A stretch of DNA of 64,000 nucleotides, taken from Beta vulgaris subsp. vulgaris (Eukaryota; Streptophyta; Magnoliopsida; Caryophyllales; Amaranthaceae). Location of the stretch: contig NC_079202.1 in NCBI RefSeq assembly GCF_026745355.1, positions 33,603,508-33,667,507 of the forward strand, written 5' to 3'. This document shows, piece after piece, positions 29,050-64,000 of the stretch. The notes under the pieces are model-generated. The model did no database searches. It was not told where the DNA came from and saw only the letters and a program-made list of their open reading frames with translations. Position 1 is the first letter of the stretch. Each line of letters starts with the position of its first letter. The position numbers were made by a program, and so were the translations under genes.

Positions 29050-29749
29050 AAAAAGAGTTCAGGATAACGCTTTCTCAGGTCGTCTTATGTTTCCCAAGTT
29101 GCTTCCTCGGTTTGATGATTAGACCATAAAACTTTGACTAACTTTATTGCCTTGTTTCGGGTGTTTCTCGTTTTGGAATCAAGGATTCTAACAGGACGTT
29201 CTTGAAAGGTGAGGGTCTCATATAATTCAATGGTTTCGGTTTGGATAACATGGGGGGCTCAGAAACGTATTTACGGAGTTGAGACACATGAAAAACATTG
29301 TGAATCTCAGCTAATTATGTAGCTAAGGCTAACCTATAAGACACTTGTCCAATTCTTCCCAATACCTCATAAGGTCCGATATAATGAGGACTCAACTTTC
29401 CTTTCCTATCAAACCCCATTACTCCCTTGGTTGGTAAAACTTTCATCAACACTTTCTCTCCAACTGCCAAGTCCGAATCCCGTCTCCTTTGATCAGCATA
29501 CGATTTTTGTCGATCGTGAGCTGCTTTCATACGCTCTTGAATCAACTTCACCTTGTGGGTAGTCTCTTCTATCATTTCTAGTCCCAAATTCAACGACTCG
29601 TTCACATCTCTCCAACATATAGGACTCCTACATTTACGTCCATTCAACGCCTCAGAAGATGTCATTCCTATGCCCGAGTGATAAATGTTGTTGTACGAGA
29701 ACTTAATGTACATCAAATGATCATCCCAATAACCTCCGAAATCCATCAT
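29050..29749 (-). pseudogene. Integrase C-terminal part and chromodomain-like tail, region 1
   Basis: The open frame 29315-29749 reads through a typical gypsy integrase C-terminus (HSGIGMTSSEALNGRKCRSP, RRRDSDLAVGEKVLMKV, SPHYIGPYEVLGRIGQVSYRL). Beyond it, in broken frames down to about 29050, are HNVFHVSQLRKYV and pieces resembling the chromodomain tail (KVLWSN/FYGLI and EEATW-like). Such tails bind methylated histone H3 in chromoviruses. Here the tail is degenerate, so the assignment rests on position and partial similarity. Confidence 0.72.
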
Positions 29750-33104: not shown

Positions 33105-33607
33105 TCACTCTTCATACTCGGACAAGTCTTCTTCCTCATCTTCGTTTACATTTCCACCATGGTTTTCAACGGGAGGGGAAGAGCTTCTTTCTATTCCTTC
33201 ATTATTACTATAGTTGGGTTCCTCGTCATCGGTGGTTAAGTAGTCATTAAGCCACTTGGCTCTAGCATCGAGCATCAGTTTCTCCAAGTAACTCAACGTT
33301 AGATACCACTTCCCTTTCAATGTGTATCATTTATAGTTTGGCCTTCCATTATTCAGAATATCTATCCAATCTTGATTCCGGCATAAGGGCCATCGTTGGG
33401 GAGAGTGTAAATCAAAACATTGGCCTGTTTTGGTGGCGTGAGGTAATCCGAATACCCGTGACCTTCATTGGGGTGGTAACACTTCATGGTTAAGCGTAAC
33501 TTGTAGATATAAGCTTAAATAGACTCTCCTACCCTCATCCTTAGAACGTAAGGTCCTTGAAGAGGGGTTCCGGTGCATTTCCTGGCGGTCAAACGTGTCT
33601 TGGCCAT
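33105..33607 (-). pseudogene. Extra pre-gag ORF with histone H3-like N-terminus, copy 1
   Basis: The ATG at 33605-33607 starts M-A-K-T-R-L-T-A-R-K-C-T-G-T, then PLQGPYVLRMRVGES. The histone H3 start is M-A-R-T-K-Q-T-A-R-K-S-T-G-G, so nine of fourteen positions are identical and two more are K/R exchanges. The body has a gag-like look (YIYKLRLTMKCYHPNEGH, VLIYTLPNDGPYAG). The end is strongly acidic (DDEEPNYSNNEG, DEEEDLSEYEE). A stop after GES and a frame break near 33350-33410 interrupt it. It lies between the primer binding site and gag. Function unknown. Confidence 0.7.
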
Positions 33608-37742: not shown

Positions 37743-38257
37743 TTACTCTTCATACCCGGATGGGTCTTCTTCCTCATCTTCGTTTACATTTTCACCATGG
37801 TTTTCAATAGGTGGGGCATGGCTACTTTCTATTCCTTCATTGTTACTATAGTTGGGTTCCTCCTCATCGGTGGTTAAGTAGTCATTAAGCCACTTGGCTC
37901 TAGCATCGAGCATCCTTTTCTTTAAGTAACTCAACATAAGATACCACTTCCCTTTCAATGTGTATCATTCATAGTTTGGCCTTTCATTTTTCAAAATATC
38001 AAAGTATTCGTTCTTGATTCCGGCATAAGGGCCATCGTTGGGGAGAGTATGAATCAAAACATCGGCTTGTTTTAGTGGCGTGAGGTAATCCGAATATTCG
38101 TGAGACTGTGACCTTCATTGGGGTGGTAACACTTCATGGTTAAGTGTAACTTGTAGATATAATCTGAAATAGACTCTCCTGCCCTCATCCTTAAAAGGTA
38201 AGGTCCTTAACGAGGGGTTCCAGTGCATTTCCTTACGGTCAAACGTGTCTTGGGGAT
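37743..38257 (-). pseudogene. Extra pre-gag ORF with histone H3-like N-terminus, copy 2
   Basis: The start codon is changed to atc (38255-38257). The N-terminus then reads P-K-T-R-L-T-V-R-K-C-T-G-T-P-R before a stop. The acidic C-terminus survives as an open frame (37743-37958: SYLKKRMLDARAKWLNDYL, DDEEE-like tail). Position between primer binding site and gag is as in copies 1 and 3. Confidence 0.68.
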
Positions 38258-43640: not shown

Positions 43641-43952
43641 CCCCCTACCCCCTCAACGAAGTCATCTCGAGGAGGTTTCATGTATTTCCTTCGGACTCTT
43701 GGAGCTCACCAACTCTTGAAAGAGCAATTCCGCATAACACTCAATGTGAAAGAAATTCTCACATTAAGAGTTACGCGTGGGGCTAATTGGATGAAAGGGA
43801 AGTCACATAGGCGAATCGCTCAGTCTCTATAAATCGAAGATATCTTTGGTCAAATTGGTGATATTCTCGAGAGGCAAGACAAATAATTCTCATGCTTTTC
43901 ATTTGAACAAGAATATTCTTGGGCACTCCCTCATGCTAGTTGCTATTCTCGA

Positions 43953-44606
43953 GATACTCACTTGCTCCCTTGGTCGAGTTACTCACTCGCTCCCTTGGTC
44001 GAGCTACTACCTCGCTCCTTTAGTCGAGTTACCATCTCACTCCCTTGGTCGAGCTACTCAACTCGCTCCCTTGGTCGAGTTACTCACTCGCTCCCTTGGT
44101 CGAGCTACTCACTCGCTCCCTTGGTCGAGCTACTCACTCGCTCCCTTGGTCGAGCTACTCACTTGCTCCCTTGGTCGAGTTACTGCCTCGCTCCCTTGGT
44201 CGAGCTACCATCTCGCTACCTTGGTCGAGATACTCAACTCGCTCCCTTGGTCGAGCTACACACTCGCTCCCTTGGTTGAGCTAATCATTCGCTCCCTTGG
44301 TCGAGCTACTCATTCACTCCCTTGGTCGAGCTACTCACTCGCTCCCTTTGTCGAGCCACTCTTTTGCTCCCTTGGTCGAGCTACTCATATGACTCCCTTG
44401 GTCGAGCTACTCATTCGCTCCCTTGGTCGAGCTACTCACTCGCTCCCTTGGTCAAGCTACTCATTCGCTCCCTTGGTCGAGCTACTCATTCGCTCCGTTG
44501 GTCGAGCTACTCATTCGCTCCCTTGGTCGAGCTACTCATTTGCTCCCTTCGGGTCCAGCTACTCACTCGCTCCCTTGGTCGAACTACTCACTCACTCCCC
44601 CAGGGC
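43953..44606. repeat. 25-bp tandem repeat array, block 1
   Basis: About 26 units of a 25-bp sequence, ctcccttggtcgagctactc plus actcg. The unit has no stop in any plus frame, so long overlapping frames appear (repeated LVELLTRSLGRATHSLPWSSY). These look like by-products of the repeat and not a protein gene. Confidence 0.95.
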
Positions 44607-44811
44607 TTAGCTGAAGTCCAGGTAAACCTAGTGTTGCAGTACAGCTGCACCACCATGAGAGCCTCTCCTCGCCGGAGCTCTAACTTCTTGGGCAATTCAA
44701 GCTTAGATGGAGGCCACAGACCTACATTTAGGCACCTCACTCAGATCGAGTGAGGGATATCTCGGTCGCCGCCGTCGCTGAGATCGACACCCGTCAAGAG
44801 CTACAGTGTCC

Positions 44812-45482: not shown

Positions 45483-46613
45483 TTAGCACCCAAAAACACG
45501 TAAATGTACAATGTTTGGTTTTCTTCCCCTAAGGAGCTCATAAGGTGTTTTCTTCAGTAAAGGTCTCAACATTACCCTATTCAAAATATAACACGCAGTA
45601 CTCACAGCCTCAGCCCAGAAGTTTCGAGGAAGACCATTCTCTAGAAGCATTGTTCTTGCCATTTCTTCTAGAGTGCGATTTTTCCTTTCAACCACTCCAT
45701 TTTGTTGTGGAGTTCTAGGAGCTGAAAAATTGTGAGATACACCATGATCATTACAGTAGGTTACAAAGCTGACATTGTCAAATTCAGAACCATGATCAGA
45801 CCGGATAGAGACTAGTTGATGACTAATCTTGTTTTGGACCTGTTTTACCAGAATTTCAAATTCTTCAAAAGTTTCATTTTTAAACTTCAAAAAGATTGTC
45901 CAAGTGAAACGAGAATAATCATCAACTAACACAAACACATAACTATGACCATTTCGACCTTGCACACGCATGGGCCCACACAAGTCCATGTGTACAAGTT
46001 CGAAAGGTCTAGTTGTGCTTACAAACTTCTTTTGCTGAAAAGAGGACTTGACATGTTTACATTTAGCACATTCATGACAAATATGATATGCAGCAAACTT
46101 GATGTTAGGTAAACCTGTCACCAAGTCTTGAGATCTCAGTTTCTTGAGCAAAGAAAAACTTACATGTCGAAGTCTCTTATGCCACAGCCAATGATCATCC
46201 TTTATAACACTAAGACAAGTGGCACTGGTCTTTGGAATCTGACTTAAAAATGTTATGTAAACATTGTTATGTCGAAGTCCCTTGCAGACCAGTTCCCTTG
46301 TTTCAGTGTTGACTATATGACAAAGATTGGTTTCAAACTCAACATGGTTTCCTTTGTCACATAGTTGAGAAATGCTCAAGAGGTTATGTTTCAAACCTTC
46401 TACAAAGTAAACATCATCAATAGCTTGAGAAAGTGTCGTACCAACTTTACCTATACCTTTAATCAAACCTTTGCTATTGTCTCCAAAGGTGACACTTCCT
46501 CCTTCATAGGCTACGAGTGAGAGAAATTGACTTGTATCTCCTGACATGTGTCTCGAGCAGCCACTGTCCAAATACCAGTATGGCTTTGTTCTCACTCTAA
46601 CCTGCACGAACAA
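45483..46613 (-). pseudogene. Copia protease-integrase region, truncated
   Basis: A 376-codon open frame. It begins around the protease (YLDSGCSRHMSGD near 46570) with the usual downstream VEGLKHNLLSISQLCDKG. The GAG-pre-integrase region follows with the H...C..C zinc pattern (HKRLRHVSFSLLKKL, CHECAKCKH). The integrase core is next, with MDLCGPM, VDDYSRFTW and SDHGSEFDN, then FSAPRTPQQNGVVERKNRTLEEMARTM; the D, D and E positions are all present. It ends at LRVFGC, where the truncation occurs. The zinc and catalytic residues look intact, but no RT follows, so the element cannot move itself. Confidence 0.92.
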
Positions 46614-46639
46614 ATCAAGGTTTAGTTATTTTCTTGTTC

Positions 46640-48992
46640 CTTGTCCTTGGGAACTGGTTTGACTCTGTCCTTTCTAACCCAGATTTGTTTTACATTGGTC
46701 TTCTTTGTTTTATTATGTTTTCCATTGTTCGACCAATTGTGTGTGTGACCCTTCTAATAATGGGCATTGTGAACATGAGACTAGTTTCTTTTATCATGTT
46801 TTTTCTTAGTCCAACAAGTATTAATAACATGACCATTCTTACCACAGTTGGTACATACGTGCATGTCCTTTGCAAACACATACTTACCTCTCTTGAATTC
46901 AGAAATCCAAGTCTCATCTCTTCCCAACTTTGGTGGCTGTTGGGAACTGGTTCCAGAATACCCTAATCCAAACCTCTGAGGATTACCAGGTTGTGAGGTC
47001 AGAATGTTCAAAGTACTCTGAGCATCGAGCAACCTGTTCATCTGTCTCAAGCAGTCACTCAAATCCTTTTCCTTGGTTTCAAGTTTCTTAAGTTGAGCTT
47101 CATTAAATTCTGCAGCAATGGCAAGATCCAACTTTTCCCTATGAAGCTCATCCTTAAGTTTTGAAACCAGTTCTGGATCTGGTTCAGAAGTGGTTGCAAT
47201 GTTCTTGCCTTTTCTTAGTTCGTATATCTCGGATTGAAGATCACAGATTTTACCTTCATATTCCAAATTTCAAGATTCAATATCAACACTTTGATTATCA
47301 GGGATAACTTTAGTGTTGATATTTTTCTTTAATTCAAATATTTCAGATTGTAAATCACATATCTTACCCTCATATTCTAAACATAAGTCTTCAACATTAA
47401 CACTAGGACCACTTGTGCTAGCAAAAGAAGCTTTCAATTCTACATACTCTTTGAACAGTTCTTCCACATCGTCAATCATATAATTATGAGCCAAAATTAA
47501 GTCAGAATGTTCTAAAGTAAAGCTAATCTGTTTGAGTATCTCGAAATTTATACCATCAATTTCAGCCTCCTTGAGTTTACTAAACCCTCTATCATTGTTT
47601 TGATAAAAATTAGTATTGGAAAAATCTGATTGAGGTTTTAGCATCTCAAGCTCGATATTCTTCTGATCCAAACTTATTTCAAGCTCTGAAATTTTCTCTT
47701 TCAGTTAAGTACAAATAAGTTCAAGCTCAGCAGAACGACTTTCACTTAGGTCTAAATTTCGTGTTACTTCTCTTAAATTCCTTTTGTTAGCCTTATAAGC
47801 AGCATTTCCCTTAACATTATGTTCAATAGCAGAATCAATAAAGCCTAGTAACTCATCTCTATCACAATATCTCATTTGTTCTTGCATATCAGAAATAGTT
47901 ACTTGTTCTTCATCGAAAGAGCTGCTTCCTGCCATAAGACATATGTCTCCCTTTCTCCCTAAACTGGTCTGCCTCTGCTCTATGTCCCCAATCAGTGCAG
48001 TCACACAAACTAGGGCTTCATCCTCCTCGCTTTCACCACCTGAATCAGAATCACCCCAGGCAGCTAGCATAGCCCTCTTTGTCATCCTCTTCTCCTTCTG
48101 TCCTCCTTTGTCATTCTTCCATGCTGGACAGTCTTTGATCATGTGTCCAGCTTCCCCACATTTGAAGCAACCAGTGCTGATACTGGTCTTCTTTGTGTTG
48201 CCCTTATTCTTCCAAGACTTTCCCTTGAACTGCGTGCTAAGACTCCTCTCAAACCTCTTAGCCATGAGTCCAATCTCATCAAGATCTTCATCATTCTCTT
48301 CACCTTTCAGGGCTAACCCACGGCTTTTGGTTGTACTTTCCTCCTTTGAATCCACCAACATCTCATGAGTCATCAACGGCCCAATAAGTTGTTCCATGGA
48401 CAAGGTGGATAGATCTTTGGCCTCATGGATAGCAGTAACCTTGGGCAGCCATTTACCTGTCAAACTTCTCAAGACCTTTCTTACCAAATCCTCATCATTA
48501 GTAAAGTTTTTTCCAAGAGATTTAAGTTCATTGATAATTGCCATGAAACGAGTAAACATATCTCTTATATTTTCATCTCGTTTCATATCAAAAGTTTCAT
48601 ACTTAGACATTAGCATATCAATTTTAGATCTCCTGACTTCATTAGTGCCTTCATAGGCTAATTCTAAAGTATCCCATATCTCTTTTGCAGTAGAGCATGC
48701 TAAGATACGTCTTACCTCATTATCAGCAATATCTTGTTGAAGTAATGACATGGCTTTAGCATTTTTCTCGAGAGTTTTCAGATCTGCACTTGTGTACTCA
48801 CTCTCCTTCTTCTCTGTTCCATCAGCCTTATCAGCAACCTTGCGTGGACCATCTTTGATAATCATCTAGCACTCATAGTCAGTGCCAATGATCAAATTCT
48901 TCATGCAAATCTTCCACCAAGGATAATTTGTTCCATTGAACTTGGGCAACCTTGATCCTCCAGATCCGTTGGTCATCTCTTGGGTATTCATT
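46640..48992 (-). pseudogene. Copia gag with two zinc knuckles, broken
   Basis: The start is near 48991 (MNTQEMTNGSGGSRLPKF, NGTNYPWWKICMKNLI). A stop replaces the usual Trp codon just before the 386-codon frame 48865-47705. That frame holds the gag domain (EIWDTLELAYEGTNEVRRSK, MFTRFMAIINELKSLGKNF, LRSLTGKWLPKVTAI) and the knuckle CFKCGEAGHMIKDC (about 48135-48180). Frames at 47671-47270 and 47266-46781 continue as a Glu/Lys-rich probable coiled coil with an internal duplication, then a second knuckle (CTNCGKNGHVINTC). At least three stops or frameshifts. Confidence 0.87.
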
Positions 48993-50590: not shown

Positions 50591-50686
50591 TCTTTCCATC
50601 TCCTCAAGATAGAGAGAGGACCTAGCCATGGAGGGTGTTCCGATAATTTCCGCAAAACACGTGGCATCGGCAGTGGCCCTCGAGGT

Positions 50687-51040
50687 ACTCACTCGCTCCG
50701 TTGGTTGAGCTACTCACTCGCTCCCTTGGTCGAGCTACTCACTCGCTCCCTTGGTCGAGCTACTCACTCGCTCCCTTGGTCGAGCTACTCATTCGCTCCC
50801 TTGGTCGAGTTACTCACTCGCTCCCTTGGTTGAGCTACTCACTCGCTCCCTTGGTCGAGCTACTCACTCGCTCCCTTGGTCGAGCTACTCACTCGCTCCC
50901 TTGGTCGAGCTACTCAATCGCTCCCTTGGTCGAGCTACTCACTCGCTCCCTTGGTCGAGCTACTCACTCACTCCCTTGGTCGAGCTACTTACTTACACTC
51001 TTTCCTTTGGTCGAGCCACATACTCGCTCCCTTGGTCGAG
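50687..51040. repeat. 25-bp tandem repeat array, block 2
   Basis: About 14 units of the same 25-bp sequence as block 1, very homogeneous, followed by diverged units to 51060. Overlapping open frames arise from the repeat. Confidence 0.95.
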
Positions 51041-51060
51041 CCACTCCCTCGAAGCCGCTC

Positions 51061-52830
51061 ATCAAGCCACCCTCAACCTCGATGGACCTTCATCGATCCC
51101 AACTTGTAACTTTGAGGCATGTGCCATCGAGCTTGGTGGAGGTAGGTATGCAAACCATGGTCTTTACTCAAATACTTGTAGCTTTAGGGGATGGCCATCG
51201 AGCTTGGCGCCTAAAAGCAACGTGCTCGATAGATTTCACAGCTCGAGCAACATCCTCTGCAAACTCACGTAAACTAATGAGTGCATGAAAATAACAAGTC
51301 AATGCCAAATTTTATAGCTGGAGTTAGTAGATGCTTACATTTCAAGAGGCGCCAAGATTGAGTCACAAATGCAAATTGCAAACAGCCACTGGCGGTGGCC
51401 CACTTGGTATACATACATATATATTGTATATTGGGCCCATAAGTTTGAGAGCTACTTTCGAGTATCATTTTTATAAATTGTAATTTTAATTACCGCAGCT
51501 CGACATCACCATCCTTCGAGTACCCTATATTTCGAACATCACCGCGTCGCCGCATCACCGCATCACCGCACCACTCAAGCTTTTGAGCCTCCTCGAGATG
51601 TCTCTCTACCTCCCTCGGCATTTTCAAGTTCTTGTACTTAAAAGGGACCTCGAGCGTAATTATCTTTGTCGAAGAGGGTATGATTGTGCCTCGAAGGGCT
51701 AAAACAAGTGCATACACAAAAGCTTTTCGAATGGCCTGTAGCTCGATGAGGTAACAACATGGGAAAGTATTTTAAAACAAGTTCGAAGACTTCGACCTGT
51801 TTGTAAGATGGCGCCTAAACATAATATGTTCGAGAATTCATGCAGTTCAGGTGCTCGAATTGGCTATTATATAAAGCCATCTCGACTCGAAGCAACGTTG
51901 ACACTCGACGTAATATATTCGAGTGCTCGACTTGCTTTTCAAGAGCCACTACATTTAATGGTTTAAAAAGTGAACTGCCGAAGTTTAGCATGGATCCTCC
52001 TCGAGCACATGATTTCGGCACGACAGCGGCACACAAGCAACCGATTCTATTGCACTCTTCGAACACAGGTTGGTTCCTAGAGTCCTCTCCCTCTCTCGAA
52101 TAGTGAGAAAAGGAGGCCATCCGAGTACTCTTGGCTCATGTTCGCCGCAACGCTCGGTTCGTGCTCGAGCTCGAGCTCGCTTGGTTCATGCTCGAGGAAG
52201 CTGAGCATGCTTATGAAGTCATAGTTTGCTCGAAGAGGATATAAGTCCGCTGCTCGAGCTACTCATCCTCTGCTCGAGCACTCGACACTCTCTCCTGCTC
52301 GATATCATGCGTCAAGTCCCATTCATAGCTCGGCATCATATTATTCCTAGACCCCAAGCCTCGAGAGAGGCTTACCTATGATTGCGGGCCTCGGCCTTTT
52401 GATTGCATGAGGACGCTTGCCTTGCTCGAGGAAGATGAGTACAGTGATCGAAGGTCGCATGAAGCCGTTGAGCTTTGGTCTACTCGAAGAGTCTTAAATA
52501 TTCGAAGTTGGAAGTTGGCGCCTAAATGCCATTTCCTCGAGTTATAATGCCACTAACATTTGTTATAAAGGCCCACATGGAAAAATACAAGTCAACCTTA
52601 ATTTAATCCTTGGTTATCATTAAATGCATTACAAAAGGCACCAAGATGAATTGAGCATACAAATTGGTACATGGAAACGTGCTGCTGGTCTATTTGTGTA
52701 TATATACATATATATTGTATACTTGAGTCCACAAGGTCAAAGCTATTTTCGAAGTATAATAATCAGCGAAATTCCGCTCAACACACGATCTCCACATGGG
52801 TCTTCCATCGTATATTGAGCGTGGGGCTAA
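51061..52830. other. LARD 3' non-coding region
   Basis: CTCGA-rich sequence without a credible ORF. A block at 51380-51480 (atacatatatattgtata with flanks) recurs in diverged form at 52670-52760, suggesting an internal duplication. The segment ends in the polypurine tract before the 3' LTR. Confidence 0.6.
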
Positions 52831-55919: not shown

Positions 55920-57290
55920 TAATCATACCTCTGAAAAGAGTTTAGGATAACGCTTTCTCATGTCGTCTTCTATTTCCCAAGTTGCTTCCTCGGTTTGATG
56001 ATTAGACCATAAAACTTTGACTAACTTTATTGCCTTATTTCAGGTGTTTCTCGTTTTGGAATCAAGGATTCTAACAAGACGTTCTTGAAATGTGAGGATC
56101 TCATCTAGTTCAATGGTTTCAGGTTGGATAACATGAGAGGGGTCAGGAACGTATTTACGGAGTTGATCCACATGAAAACATTATGAATCTTGGCTAATTA
56201 TGTAGGTAAGACTAACTTATAAGCCACTTGTCCAATTCTTTCCAATACCTCATAAGGTTTTATATAACGAGGACTCAGCTTTCCTTTCCTACCGAACCTC
56301 ATTAGTCCCTTGGTTGGTGAAACTTTTAGCATCACTTTCTCTCCAACTGCCAACTCCAAATCCCGTCTCCTTTGATTGGCATATGACTTTTGTCGATCCT
56401 GAGCTGCTTTCAAACGCTCTTGAATCAACTTCTTGGTAGTCTCTTCTATCATTTCTAGTCCCAAATTCAACGAATCGTTCACATCGCTCCAGCTTATAGG
56501 TTTCCTACATTTACGTTCATACAACGCCTCATAAGGTGTCATTCCTATGCTCAATTAATAAATGTTGTTGTACGAGAATTCAATGTACATCAAATGATCA
56601 TCACAATAACCTCCGAAATCCTTCACAAATGCTCTCAACATATCCTCCAAGGTCTGAATCGTTCATTCTGTTTGATCATCCGTTGCTGGGTGGAAGGTTG
56701 TGCTGAATTTCAATAGTGTACCCACGGCTGTCTGAAGTTGTTTCCAGAACTTAGATAAGAATCTTCAGTTCCTAACTGAAACGATGTCCTTCGGGATACC
56801 ATGTAGCCTAACTACCTCATTGAAGTAAGCATCTGCCAACTGTTTCAACAACCAAGTATCCTTCGTTGCTACTAATCTTGCCGTCTTAGTCAAACAATCC
56901 ACTATTACCCATATTGCATTCTTTCCCGACCTCGTATATGGTAACTCCATGATGAAATCCATAGAGATATATTCTCATTTCCATCCTGGCACTTCCAACG
57001 GTTGCAATTTTCCTCCAAGCTTCATATGACGTATTTTCACCCTCTGGCATGTTAAACATTTTGCCACGAAGTCGGTTACTTTCTGCTTCAACCTAGGCCA
57101 CCAAAAATGCTTCTACAAATATCTGTAAAGCTTATATCCTCTTGGATGTATGGAATACGGCGAACTATGGGATTCGCTTAGAATTCTCGTCTTGAGTTCC
57201 TCGTCCCGTGGCACACACAATCTCCGTTTATAGTTCGTAACACCATTGGCGTCGATCTTGAACTCTGGTGCTTGACCATTTACTTTCATC
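55920..57290 (-). pseudogene. Integrase and chromodomain-like tail, region 3
   Basis: Core fragments are MDFIMELPYTRSGKNAIWVI and HGIPKDIVSVRN (56765-56962). In the latter the second catalytic Asp region reads SVRN instead of SDRD. The C-terminal part is at 56198-56554 (MTPYEALYERKCRKPISW, VGEKVMLKVSPTKG, SPRYIKPYEVL). The tail (about 55930-56190) aligns with the chromodomain-like part of region 1. Not active as read. Confidence 0.88.
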
Positions 57291-58065: not shown

Positions 58066-59324
58066 CTATGGATCTACGTAAACGCCTTCTTTTGCTATCA
58101 CATGATCCAAAAATGATACTTTTTCCAACCGAAATTCCCACTTTGAGAACTTGGCGTATGATAACTTTTCTAAAAGAATCTCCAATACTTTCCTCAACTG
58201 AGCCTCATCATCTTCTTTACCCTTCAAGTACACCAATATATCGTCAATGAACAAAATCACGAACTTGTCAAGGTATGGCTGGAAAGATATGTTTATGAGG
58301 TCCATGAAAGCTCCTAGTGAGTCCAGAAGGCATAACTGTGAACTCATAATGGTCATATCTCGTACGAAAGGTTGTTTTCAGGATGTCCTCTTCAGCAATT
58401 CGTAATTGGTGATACCCGACTCAAATCGATCCTGGAAAACACTGTTGCACCTTGAAGCTGATCGAACAAATCCTCGGTTCTCGGGAGCGGATATTTATTC
58501 TTTACCGTGGCATTATTCAACTCCGAATAATCGATGCATAATCTCAAAGATCCGTCTTTCTTCCTAACAAACAATACCGGGGCTCCCCAAGGCGAAACAC
58601 TAGGCCGAATGTACCCTTTTTCCAACAATTCCTTCAATCGCACCTTTAATTCTTGCAATTCTGCAGGTGCCACTTGATACGGGGCCTTAAAGATTGGTCT
58701 TGCTCCCAGGGCTAAGTTGATCTTAAAGCTCACCTCCTTGACTGGCGGCATTCCAGGTAGTTCTTCGAAAAATACATTCGGAAACTCCTTTACTATCGAA
58801 ATTTGAGTCAACTCCTCGTTTTCCATGATTATGTATCTTACTTGGCACAGGTAGACTGGGTAGCATTTTCTAAGATAGGTTTGAAGGTTCAGGGTAGAGA
58901 TTATTTTGGTGTCATACTGGAAGGCTATGCCTTTATAAGATATCATATTTCCCTTTGGTCCTCTAAGAGATATTTTCCGGTTATGAAACTCGATTTTGGC
59001 TTTATACTTATCTAACCAATCCATTACCAAGATAACGTCAAATTCCTTTAGGTCAAAAACGATAAGATCGACGGGTAATTTGGTACCAGCTATGACTACA
59101 AGGATACTTTGGAAAAGAGATTTACAAGAAATAGCTTCACCTGTGGGCATGACTATATTGGCTCGACAAGACTGGGTAGACTTGAGGGGATACTTATTAA
59201 CAAAAGTGCTAGAAATAAAAGAATGAGACGCTCCGGAATCAAAGAGTACATAAGCAGGATTTGAGTTCACGAGAAAAGTACCCGTCACAACATTGGCATC
59301 GGTATCAGCTTCAATTTGGCTCAC
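58066..59324 (-). pseudogene. Protease and reverse transcriptase, region 3
   Basis: The 310-codon frame 59324-58392 has an intact protease site ([11 protein letters not shown]), then the linker and RT N-terminus ([59 protein letters not shown]). A frameshift follows. RT resumes at 58356-58066 with the active site FIDDILVYLKGKE and [15 protein letters not shown]. Typical Tekay/Del-type RT. Confidence 0.92.
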
Positions 59325-59339
59325 GACATTGATTCTTCC

Positions 59340-60443
59340 ACTGGTTTAGCCTCCATTGCCATTCTTTCCAAAGTTTCCATTTCCACCTCCAAAAGAGCGG
59401 TTGTCTAAGTTCCCATTCTGTGCAGCATTTCCTCCACTGCGCGGTTGATATTGAACTTTTGAATTATGTTTCCACCTCCATTGTTCCCATTATTACCATT
59501 GTTCACATTTAGTCCATTTTGAGCTTGCTTCTTAGGACAGTTGAATGATTTGTGACCTACTTCTCCATACTCAAAACATTCTTTTCACCCTGACAAGTGA
59601 ATCCTAGATGGCTCTTGGCACACTTCTTACAAACAAGTTTTTTTGGTTCTTATTTCCTTCCTGGCCCTGTTGTCCAGAAGTCTGATTGTTGCGGTTGTTG
59701 TATCGTCCACCATTGTTGTTGTTGTTTCCACCATTGTTGTTGTTGGACCTTTTGTCGTACCCTTGACTGTTGTTGTTCCTGGCAGGTTCTTTTCTTTTAT
59801 GTCTACTTAGCACATCTCTCTCACGTTGTAGAATTCTCTCTAGGTTTAAGGCCTTAGCATACGCTTCTGCAAAAGTAGTTGAGGTGTTACCTCCCATTCG
59901 AGTCTGAAGATCAAACTTAAGTCCGTCTTCAAACTTCTGGGCCTTAGTGCCATGATCTGGCACTACAGTTCGGCAAAAGCGGGCATACTCATTAAAAATC
60001 TGAGCGTACTCTTGCACACTCATGTTATAGCTTTGGTTGAATCTACAAAACTCATTATATTTCTGCCTTCGAATGTGCTCGAGGAAGGATCAAGTCTTAA
60101 TCGCTACCTTAATCACTTCACAGTTAAAGTTCTCTTGAGCTTTAACAGTGGGTCCTACACTTTCCCACCAAGTATCGGCATCTTCGTGTAAGTAAAAGGT
60201 TGTTTGGTCTACTTTCTAGGCCTCAGGCGTGCCGTGGCCGTGAAAATCTTTTCAAAGTCTCTTATCCAATTCTCAAGAAGTACTGGGTCTTCTCTCCGAA
60301 TAAAGGTCAGTGGTTTTAAAGTAGAAATATTTTTTGCCATTGCAGCTTGCGGATCGTCTCCATGATGGTTATTGTTGATCTAGTTTTGAAAGAGTAAGCC
60401 AAAGCTTTCAGTCGCGCTGCAACTTGTTCAGGAGTTTCGGCCA
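59340..60443 (-). pseudogene. Gag, region 3
   Basis: The start is near 60443 (AETPEQVAARLK). The gag domain runs through broken frames to the open frame 60023-59604 (MSVQEYAQIFNEYARFCRTV, KALNLERILQRERDVLSRH) and the Asn-rich linker. In the zinc knuckle (about 59545-59585) the second Cys is replaced by Tyr (CFEYGEVGHKSFNC). The intact version is in region 1. Confidence 0.85.
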
Positions 60444-60805: not shown

Positions 60806-61306
60806 TCACTCTTCATACTCAGACGTGTCTTCTTCCTCATCTCCGTTTACACTTTCACCATGGTTTTCAACAGGTGTGGCAGGACTACTTTCTATTCTTC
60901 CATTGTTACTATAGTTGGGTTCCTCGTCATCGGTGGTTAAGTAGTCATTAAGCCACTTGGCTCTAGCATCGAGCATCCTTTTCTCCAAGTAACTCAACCT
61001 GAGATACCACATCTCTTTCAATGTGTATCGTTCATAGTTTGGCCTTCCATTTTTCAGAATATCAGAGTATTCGTTCTTGATTACGGCATAAGGGTTATCA
61101 TTGGGGAGAGTGTGAATCAAAACATCGGCATGTTTTGGTGGTGTGATGTAATCCGAATACATGTGACCTTCATTGAGGTGGTAACACTTCATGGTTAAGT
61201 GTAACTTGTAGATATAAGCTGAAAGAGACTCTCCTACCCTCATCCTTAGAAGGTAAGGTCCTTGACGAGGGATGCATTTCCTGGCGGTCAAACGTGTCTT
61301 GACCAT
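60806..61306 (-). CDS. Extra pre-gag ORF with histone H3-like N-terminus, copy 3 (open)
   Basis: A single open frame of 166 codons between the primer binding site and gag. It starts M-V-K-T-R-L-T-A-R-K-C-I-P-R, where copy 1 has the closer H3 match M-A-K-T-R-L-T-A-R-K-C-T-G-T; a short deletion removed the TGT part. The middle (SLSAYIYKLHLTMKCYHLN, VLIHTLPNDNPYAVIKNEY) resembles the helical layout of retrotransposon gag domains, with a bend before LPND. The rest is SYLEKRMLDARAKWLNDYL, then an acidic tail (DDEEPNYSNN, DEEEDTSEYEE). No membrane segment or zinc motif. I do not know a function. An H3-tail mimic, a captured H3 fragment or an N-terminal gag module are possibilities. Confidence 0.72.
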   Translation of the reverse strand: MVKTRLTARKCIPRQGPYLLRMRVGESLSAYIYKLHLTMKCYHLNEGHMYSDYITPPKHADVLIHTLPNDNPYAVIKNEYSDILKNGRPNYERYTLKEMWYLRLSYLEKRMLDARAKWLNDYLTTDDEEPNYSNNGRIESSPATPVENHGESVNGDEEEDTSEYEE

Positions 61307-62045
61307 CTAATAAAATATCATAAACAATTAATAAGTACCTGTAACGAGTACTTTCATACGTGCACACATAAACCATTCATACCCACACTAAATTCTTAAG
61401 TCATATTTTAATCCTGATTCATTTCTCCTAAATATTTTTATTATCTTAACTTCCTAAACAAATTTTAAGTGTAAACCTAATTGATTCATTTTCCTTATTT
61501 ATTTTTTTCTTTAACAACTTTAATCTTTCCCTAGTTAATCTAAACTTTTCTCTGATACCATTCTGTAACACTCTCGCCGACCCGAACCTTTTTTCATTCA
61601 ACAAAAACTCGAGTCCACGAGGGTTCAACTCGACGGGAGCACTACTGCTGCACTTATCTTTGTGAAATGCAAGGCTAGATTAAAACATACTAAACTCAAA
61701 TTAGTTAATCCTTACAACCAAGTAAATCGTTCTTGAAATATTACTAATTAACACTCTTGATATTCCTCATCTACGCAACCGGAGTCTATAATAGACATTA
61801 ATGAGATCTTAGTTACCTAAATAACCCCTTTATATATATAAAACAATTTAAATAATTTAAATAACTTAAAGATATTCTTAATGATTTTAAGAGAGGTTAT
61901 AATTCAAATTTTATGATTTTCAAATCATTTATGAAATTAATTTAAGTACTCAAAAATTACTTCAACTTAAATTTTATTAGCATGAACAATTATTTTAAAC
62001 ATAGAAAACTAAATTTATTGTACTCCTTATTTCTAAGAAATATTT

Positions 62046-63626
62046 CACTAGTAGAATAAATGCTATTTGTTGCGGTCAAAAAGTGGCATATTGCTGCGGT
62101 TTTGGGCGCGCAGCAATTAAGGGGGCAGCAATAGGTAATAATAATATTGCTGCAGTTTCTAGGCCAAACCGCAGCAATATAAGTATTTTACATTTAAAAA
62201 GTACAATGTATTGCTGCGGTTTTGGTTAGAAACCGCAGCAATAATAGGTCTATTGTTGCGGTTGTTGTCCAACCCCGCAGCAATACGTCCTGTTACAAGT
62301 AAAAAAAAAAATTGCATTTTATAATTAAATTTGAAAATCTAAAATCATACTCAACCCCCAAATATATAGCAGATGAGCTTGATATTGATAATAACACCGT
62401 AAAGCAAAAATACTCAATCACAAATTTCCAAAAAGAAAATAATAAATATAACTAAATGATTAATTACCGAAAAAATATGATTACAGATTTAACAAAAAAA
62501 TGAAAAACAACGGTTATACAAATCTAAAAAAAGAATCCTAAAAATAACAAACTGAAAATAAAAAATAAAAATCTAAAACATAAGATTTACATATCTAAAA
62601 AAAGAACCCTAAAAATAACAAACTGAAAATAAAAAAATTATAAAACATAAAATTTACAGATCTAAAAAAACGATTCCTAAATAACAAACTGAAAATAAAA
62701 AAAATCCAAAAACATAAAATTTACATATCTAAAAAAACGAAAAAAAATGAAAAGAACGAAAAAAAGGAAAAATAAAAAAAGAGATGTGGCCGGAAATTTG
62801 TGAACGACTGGATCTGACAGAAATAACAAACCGCCCGACGAAGGAACAACCAACGAACAGCCGATGAAAGTTGAGGAACGAACGGCCGATGAAGAACAAA
62901 CCAACGAACAGACGACCAACCAACGAACCAACGACAACCAACAAACGGCGGAACAAAGATAGAGGAACGAACAGCCGATGAAGAACGAACCAACAAACAA
63001 ACGACCAACCAACGAACCAACAACAACGAGTGGCAGAACAAAGATAGAGGAACGAACGGCCAATGAAGAACGAACGAAGGACGAACAAAAAGGAAGACGA
63101 GAGGGTAGGAGTTGGCCGGAAATTTACACGAGAGAGAGAGGGAGATTTTCAGGAGAGAGAGGGAGGAATAAGAGAGAGGGAAGATAGAGAAGGAGATTTT
63201 CAGGAGAGAGATGGAGGAATAAGAGAAAGGGAATCGAGAGAGGGAGATTTTCAGGAGAGAGGAGCGAAATCTGAGAGGGAGGAATAGGAGTGAGGAGGCG
63301 CCCATTTAGGTTGTATTTAGGGTTTCAATTTTTTTTGGTAACATATATTGTTGCGGTTTATGACAAGAACCGCAGCAATATATTAAAATATTATTTTTTT
63401 AATATATTGTTGCGGTTTTTGTCAGAAACCGCAGTAATATATCTGGTCAAATGTCAACTTTTTTTCAAACTTCTTTCCGTTGAAACAATATTGCTGTGAT
63501 TTATGTCGAGAACCGCATCAATATGGTTATTTTATATTTTATCTTTTCTTTTAACGTGATATATTGCTGCGTATGGGTAAAACCGCAGCAATATCACCGC
63601 AGCAAATAGCATTTATTCTACTAGTG
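62046..63626. mobile_element. Non-autonomous CACTA element 2 (young)
   Basis: The first bases cactagtagaataaatgct are matched almost perfectly by the reversed last bases, through about 28 positions. The 3-bp duplication ttt flanks it (62043-62045, 63627-63629). Subterminal repeats of ttgctgcggtt/aaccgcagcaa occur many times at both ends (62060-62290, 63345-63605). Length 1581 bp, with no transposase. The near-identical TIRs suggest recent activity. Confidence 0.93.
62850..63290. repeat. Two tandem repeat blocks inside CACTA element 2
   Basis: The first block (about 62850-63080) has about 2.5 units of roughly 100 bp (gaacgaacggccgatgaag, then accaaccaacgaacc). The second (63139-63270) has three purine-only units of about 51 bp (ggagattttcaggagagaga type). 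They generate long but repetitive open frames on both strands, which I do not regard as genes. Confidence 0.85.
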
Positions 63627-64000
63627 TTTTAAAGTTATAAAAGACTATGTTATTCTAAAACATACTAACTTAACAAAGTAGGCTGATTTAATAAAGTTAT
63701 TGATTTTGTCTTAAAAATAAAGGTAAAATAATAAAACTCAAATAAACTAAAAGAAAAGGAAAAGAAGTTTTAAGAATCAGTTTCTCAAACTAAGAAAGGA
63801 AACAAACGAAAGAAGGGGAGGGCGACAGAGGAGGCACGAAGCAGGGGAGAAGAAGGAGGTTTGTGGTGCTGGTGGTTCAGTATGCGGTGGCGGGATTTAG
63901 ACAGCAGGGGCGTCGCGAAAAAGGGTCGGGTTGGGTTCGAGTGGTGGCTGGTGCAGGCTGTAAAGGCGACAGCGGGGGTGCTGCAGAGGAACCGCGAAGG

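Follow-up and report, generated by a model that had tools for sequence, protein, structure and literature searches.

5' accessory ORFs (aORFs) are a known feature of Tekay elements, their functions being open (PMC11728184), and aORFs in general have been discussed elsewhere (PMC7264820). In the Tekay/Del elements of sunflower (Tekay group 2), rice, maize and sorghum, as in the elements analyzed here, an extra sense ORF conserved among copies and with no known domain lies between the 5' LTR and gag (PMC11728184). The sunflower protein has 402 aa, whereas the proteins of the present families, likened to it by description, have ~165-192 aa and a TARK-type arm; the accessible text of that report does not mention an H3-like start and uses the word "histone" 0 times. 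The Bongo families of Beta vulgaris (Weber et al. 2013, PMC3605345) also belong to the Tekay clade and have long LTRs, a Met-tRNA primer site (such sites are reported in Beta chromoviruses in the same paper) and an integrase chromodomain. However, as far as a comparison by description goes, Bongo encodes gag-pol as one ORF and the available parts of the paper mention no ORF before gag, unlike the present elements. Extra coding capacity is likewise found in another plant Ty3/Gypsy element, that of orchids with an m6A demethylase domain (PMC9289625), which represents acquisition of a recognizable domain, while the present aORF shows no DNA sign of capture. Outside retrotransposons, the histone mimics WIZ, LIG1 and others (PMC10611923) likewise carry a short motif that resembles the neighborhood of H3 lysine 9; these are host proteins with reported methylation, whereas the motif considered here is the very N-terminus of a retrotransposon protein, is in the H3 register and is known from sequence alone. 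The literature searched, mostly at the level of titles and abstract openings, gave no account of a plant retrotransposon aORF that begins like H3. 5' aORFs as such are known, but the present aORF family was likewise not found described there.

The window (the whole 64,000-nucleotide stretch of Beta vulgaris subsp. vulgaris DNA analyzed here) contains on the minus strand, at 60806-61306, an open aORF of 166 aa, which starts with MVKTRLTARKCIPRQGPYLLRMR and has an acidic C-terminal tail. Its ATG is abutted by a U-rich tract (61307-61351, minus strand) with a TTAG end, which from its sequence would resemble a 3' splice site. The primer-binding site TGGTATCAGAG (61550-61560, minus strand), which we take to be of the initiator-Met tRNA type, is located three bases off the LTR end and 244 bases upstream of the aORF start. 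Downstream of the aORF, a Ty3/Gypsy element continues with pieces of gag, protease and RNase H, and its features listed next were also found on the minus strand: a gag fragment (59604-60023; Retrotrans_gag E 0.058, below the cut-off), the protease (RVP_2) with the start of the reverse transcriptase recognized by eye (58392-59324), and, in the stretch assigned to the same element, a chromodomain piece (55926-56039; PF00385 E 0.00064, below the cut-off). The earlier note had placed three aORF copies before gag in the window; its coordinates are right, but only the copy at 60806-61306 is open, and the other two, both on the minus strand, are decayed: the one at 33105-33607 carries stops and a frame change, and the one at 37743-38257 begins with ATC instead of ATG and carries stops. 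The repeat pattern assigns to the copy at 33105 a further chromodomain piece (29088-29258, minus strand; PF00385 E 0.00037, below the cut-off), and a third, detected in a relative from family 2 (see below), scores 25.2 bits (cut-off 25.1). As a sense ORF that lies between the 5' LTR and gag and is conserved among copies, the ORF qualifies as a 5' aORF of the kind known from Tekay elements; from the layout and the description of Beta chromoviruses in PMC3605345 we infer that the host element is a Tekay-type chromovirus.

A six-frame search of the same genome (assembly of 569 Mb in 20 contigs, nine of which sum to ~564 Mb) with the window protein returned at least 151 matched pieces (207 candidates, 150 of them scored; one copy can give several pieces). 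The 30 best loci, window copy included, constitute family 1; 23 of these 30 have an aORF open over at least 160 aa, 168 aa in 16 of the 23, and the commonest start is MARTRMTARKCT (11 of 30 loci). Family 2 (L031, L032, L035 and others) starts with MARLHQTARKRTARKLTG, and four copies 97-100% identical to the query (query counted) are open over 165 aa. Family 3 starts with MACVRRTAKKRV and is represented by an open copy once (L034). From its N- to its C-terminus, the protein comprises a basic arm (~12 residues), a conserved core (~105 residues) and an acidic tail; 46 of 105 core residues are identical between families 1 and 2, and 44 to 49 of 105 among families 1-3. A remote family 4 (L059-L062) matches members of families 1 and 2 with E-values of 3e-7 to 7e-4, starts with MAGPI(V/A)P.ALTM and is devoid of the H3-like motif. 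In family 4 the aORF of L060 has 139 aa and its primer-site region reads TGGTAACCAAGC, and the start context in L059-L061 is TTAG/TCAG-A-ATGGC.

The likeness to histone H3 is confined to the arm and hardly continues beyond residue 12. The copy at 33105-33607 begins with MAKTRLTARKCTGT, and its identity to H3 (MARTKQTARKSTGG) at 9 of 14 positions, claimed in the earlier note, was confirmed. The open window copy, with an arm (codons 1-12) at 61271-61306 on the minus strand, starts with MVKTRLTARKCI and has 5 of the 11 H3 residues after Met. Scored against H3 residues 2-12, the 30 family-1 loci reach 8 (15 loci), 7 (9), 6 (5) or 5 (1), so the window copy, as the sole one with 5/11, is the least H3-like among them. 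Family 2 (scored stretch MARLHQTARKRT) has 8/11 H3 residues in register from Met, while family 3 has 4/11 and keeps only MA....TA.K. Relatives in the same genome thus mostly match H3 better than the window copy does, which bears out the expectation that the H3-like start recurs in related elements, though not as far as the remote family 4. The score of 8/11 is made up of partly different residues in families 1 and 2, with T4 in one and Q6 in the other. All compared copies of families 1-3 have in common M-A-x-x-x-x-T-A-[RK]-K, i.e. the start and the T6-A7-R8-K9 core of H3. With the first Met removed, as is usual before Ala, the arm of family 1 in H3 numbering would read A1 R2 T3.. T6 A7 R8 K9. 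T11; K4, S10 and Q5 of H3 are not kept in the arms, except that Q5 is kept in family 2.

A short basic N-terminus could resemble H3 by chance, with no H3-related role, and M and A are favored anyway after ATGGC start contexts. When the first 20 residues of a family-1 copy were searched blindly against the PDB, histone H3, aligned from residue 1, was the sole match, albeit with a non-significant E-value of 0.92, and no match up to E = 10 was obtained for the starts of the window copy and of families 2 and 3; both results are consistent with chance. Against it, a set of 1814 distinct 14-mers that begin at an ATG and are followed by a stop no sooner than 30 residues on (elements and H3 included) contained, apart from H3 and these families, no score above 4/11, whereas two families reach 8/11 via partly different residue sets. 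The composition-based probability of an 8/11 start is ~2.6e-8 per start, a value that presupposes H3 as the target chosen beforehand. The 569 Mb genome was matched 49 times by a 30-base DNA pattern that encodes M-A-[R/S]-T-x-x-T-A-[R/S]-K, 9 times in host H3 readings (7 of these 9 places were fetched and read) and 40 times at aORF places, as matched by eye, and the reversed control of the pattern gave 0 matches; the pattern was drawn after the family had been seen, and these counts are therefore a gauge of specificity, not of significance.

Comparison of families 1-3 (one copy per family) yielded pS values of 1.08, 0.67 and 0.98 and pN values of 0.26, 0.45 and 0.36 for codons 1-12, and pS values of 0.89, 0.77 and 0.75 and pN values of 0.39, 0.40 and 0.35 for the core. 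The arm values are like those of the core, so the arm is about as tightly held as the core between families; TA[R/K]K is kept although its codons differ synonymously. The H3-like arm of this aORF family appears to be real and constrained between families, which argues against chance, and mimicry of H3 is plausible.

Within family 1 the evidence for constraint on the arm is mixed. Pairwise omega (L008, L011, L012, L020, L022, L027 and L029 left out) is 0.34 for codons 1-12 vs 0.18 for core codons 19-125, and T4, T7 and R9 are identical in all 23 open copies, while A2 and A8 vary freely. In a branch analysis of family 1 (tree of the 30 copies, mutation rates taken from the leader; as best protein matches, the copies are biased toward intact ones), the replacement ratio over all branches is 0.99 for codons 2-12, i.e. 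with no visible constraint, vs 0.26-0.41 for the core, and the H3-shared codons are under no stronger constraint than core codons drawn at random (74% of such draws have an equal or lower value); the ratio near 0.99 is what the chance explanation would lead one to expect. On internal branches the H3-shared codons show 2 replacements vs 6.3 expected (terminal branches: 18 vs 26.2; small counts), and codons 4, 7, 9 and 12 show 0 vs 3.4 expected, while the non-shared codons 5, 6 and 11 show 4 vs 2.3 (terminal: 12 vs 11.7) and the core 28 vs 75.4 (terminal: 177 vs 333.1); the decision to treat shared and non-shared codons separately was taken after the all-branch data had been seen. The earlier note had set purifying selection on the start against a neutrally evolving N-terminus: the former is seen between families, whereas over all branches of family 1 the arm shows no visible constraint next to a constrained core, and its H3-shared codons look constrained on internal branches, where counts are small. 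On balance we consider a chance resemblance improbable.

Outside the arm, searches for relatives of the protein were negative. No Pfam family, and hence no histone fold, was matched by any of 11 aORF members at E up to 10. The suggestion of a gag-like module or gag duplication was abandoned as well, with no Pfam match and an hhalign probability of 0.2% against three family-1 gag pieces (a shallow gag profile). A search of solved structures with the aORF family profile gave two matches with E-values of 0.43 and 0.68, which we took as noise, and the AlphaFold2 model of the single window protein has a mean pLDDT of 50.9, too low for a fold search. Viral contigs searched with the aORF alignment gave 55 pattern matches, of which 0 were confirmed.

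Another possible origin of the arm is capture: an exon of a host H3 or H3.3 gene could have contributed its 5' end, which was fused to the aORF and later diverged. Family 2 and the host H3 gene L065 share 15 consecutive bases (by eye), and one of the seven host H3 places read, L067, has an acceptor-like TTCCAG directly before the ATG, as in the elements. On the other hand, the families match their best host H3 start at no more nucleotides than random synonymous recoding would give, namely 24/36 in family 1 (P 0.87), 26/36 in family 2 (P 0.27) and 21/36 in family 3 (P 0.24). Moreover, a similar acceptor-like layout, extended by one A, occurs in family 4, where the H3-like arm is absent, and the likeness hardly reaches beyond residue 12. 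A captured host H3 exon, proposed in the earlier note, is unsupported, since there is no excess DNA identity to host H3 genes, although synonymous saturation could have erased the trace of an old capture. We regard capture as the least probable of the explanations weighed here, and convergence as the simpler reading of the origin of the arm. In the host H3 gene L067 (C9:16956583, minus strand) the ATG directly follows TTTGTTCCAG, a 3' splice site-like sequence.

In families 1-3 a U-rich stretch ending with AG directly precedes the ATG of the aORF (29 of 30 family-1 loci; L006 ends with TTG). The leader between the primer site and the aORF was delimited in 37 loci and contains 4 to 12 upstream ATGs in these (28 of family 1, 8 of family 2 and 1 of family 3; two family-1 loci were dropped from an initial 39). 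Given the acceptor-like site that abuts its ATG and the many upstream ATGs in the leader, the aORF is probably expressed via splicing, from a subgenomic RNA. A donor-like AATAG|GT or TTAG|GTTAGT (a loose motif) was found in 8 of 8 family-2 leaders, in the single family-3 leader and in 22 of the 28 family-1 leaders, in one of the 22 at a late position only. Every upstream ATG follows the donor-like site in families 2 and 3, while many family-1 leaders already contain one or two ATGs ahead of this site, and the splicing model is weaker for that family. In unspliced RNA the in-frame TAG directly before the ATG (29 of 30 family-1 copies and families 2-3) would make the H3-like stretch N-terminal, whereas a spliced first exon could in principle lengthen the N-terminus. 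About 25-45 bases before the aORF ATG, adjoining the acceptor-like site, AAGTACT and AGTACTT form a short stem in families 1-3, in family 3 as a variant with a G-U pair (single folds of L005, L010, L025, L032, L034 and L035); its window counterpart lies near 61330-61352, by position only.

As to what the arm may do, the best single reading, which we hold tentatively, is that of a 5' accessory protein with a convergent H3K9-like motif. The arm would then imitate the neighborhood of H3 lysine 9, so that it could be bound by methyl-lysine readers or by SUVH-type H3K9 methyltransferases of the host, and the aORF protein could tether element complexes to heterochromatin or distract the silencing machinery. 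Almost as likely, in our estimate, is that the arm serves nuclear import or RNA binding, like the basic motifs of retroviral regulatory proteins, and that the likeness to H3 is incidental. The arms of families 1-3 are all basic, that of family 3 (MACVRRTAKKRVIRRRN) most so, and other Tekay 5' aORF proteins, with no sequence likeness among those compared, are predicted to be nuclear (PMC11728184). However, T7 and A8 are constant in the compared copies of families 1-3, which charge alone would not demand, and T7-A8-[RK]-K is shared while position 5, basic in H3, is R, H and R in the three families, a pattern that fits a specific short motif better than a requirement for charge alone.

For an H3K9-like motif, H3K9 writers or readers are the natural candidate partners, and in mammals non-histone proteins are methylated at motifs of this kind (PMC10611923). 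The earlier note had suggested the element's own integrase, besides host methyl-histone readers and writers, as a partner of the arm, and the integrase proposal is weakened. In the window chromodomain pieces, ERPVRILD and NRPIKILD are free of aromatic residues, and the pieces have H or Q where the aligned chromodomains of Clr4 and 2m2l have Y; they lack methyl-lysine cage aromatics and fit the chromodomain group described as being without the first and usually the third aromatic cage residue (PMC3350952, PMC6317226), and the integrase is therefore a weaker candidate partner. The interaction partner of the plant-type integrase chromodomain is left open in the accessible part of PMC6317226. The fuller proposal, that the chromovirus encodes a selected mimic of the H3 tail around lysine 9 as an accessory protein made via splicing, which would engage the host H3K9 methylation that silences the element or marks its target chromatin, strikes us as rather unlikely when taken as a whole. 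If true, it would mean a retrotransposon imitating a histone in conflict with H3K9-directed silencing. The conserved H3-like arm gives the questions of aORF function and of the partner of the plant-type chromodomain one concrete and cheap test.

Several other features were encountered in the window. The 5' LTR contains an insertion (~62048-63630) with inverted ends CACTAGTAGAATAAATGCTATTTG and repeats of TTGCTGCGGTTT, which by eye resembles a small CACTA-type DNA transposon. ORFs at 45483-48865 on the minus strand resemble, also by eye, gag and integrase of a copia-type element. Self-comparison revealed two arrays of a similar repeat (43846-44753 and 50680-51288) with offsets that are multiples of ~25 bases, and both arrays yield long, spurious-looking ORFs of the type SLGRATHSLPWSSYSLAPLVEL.
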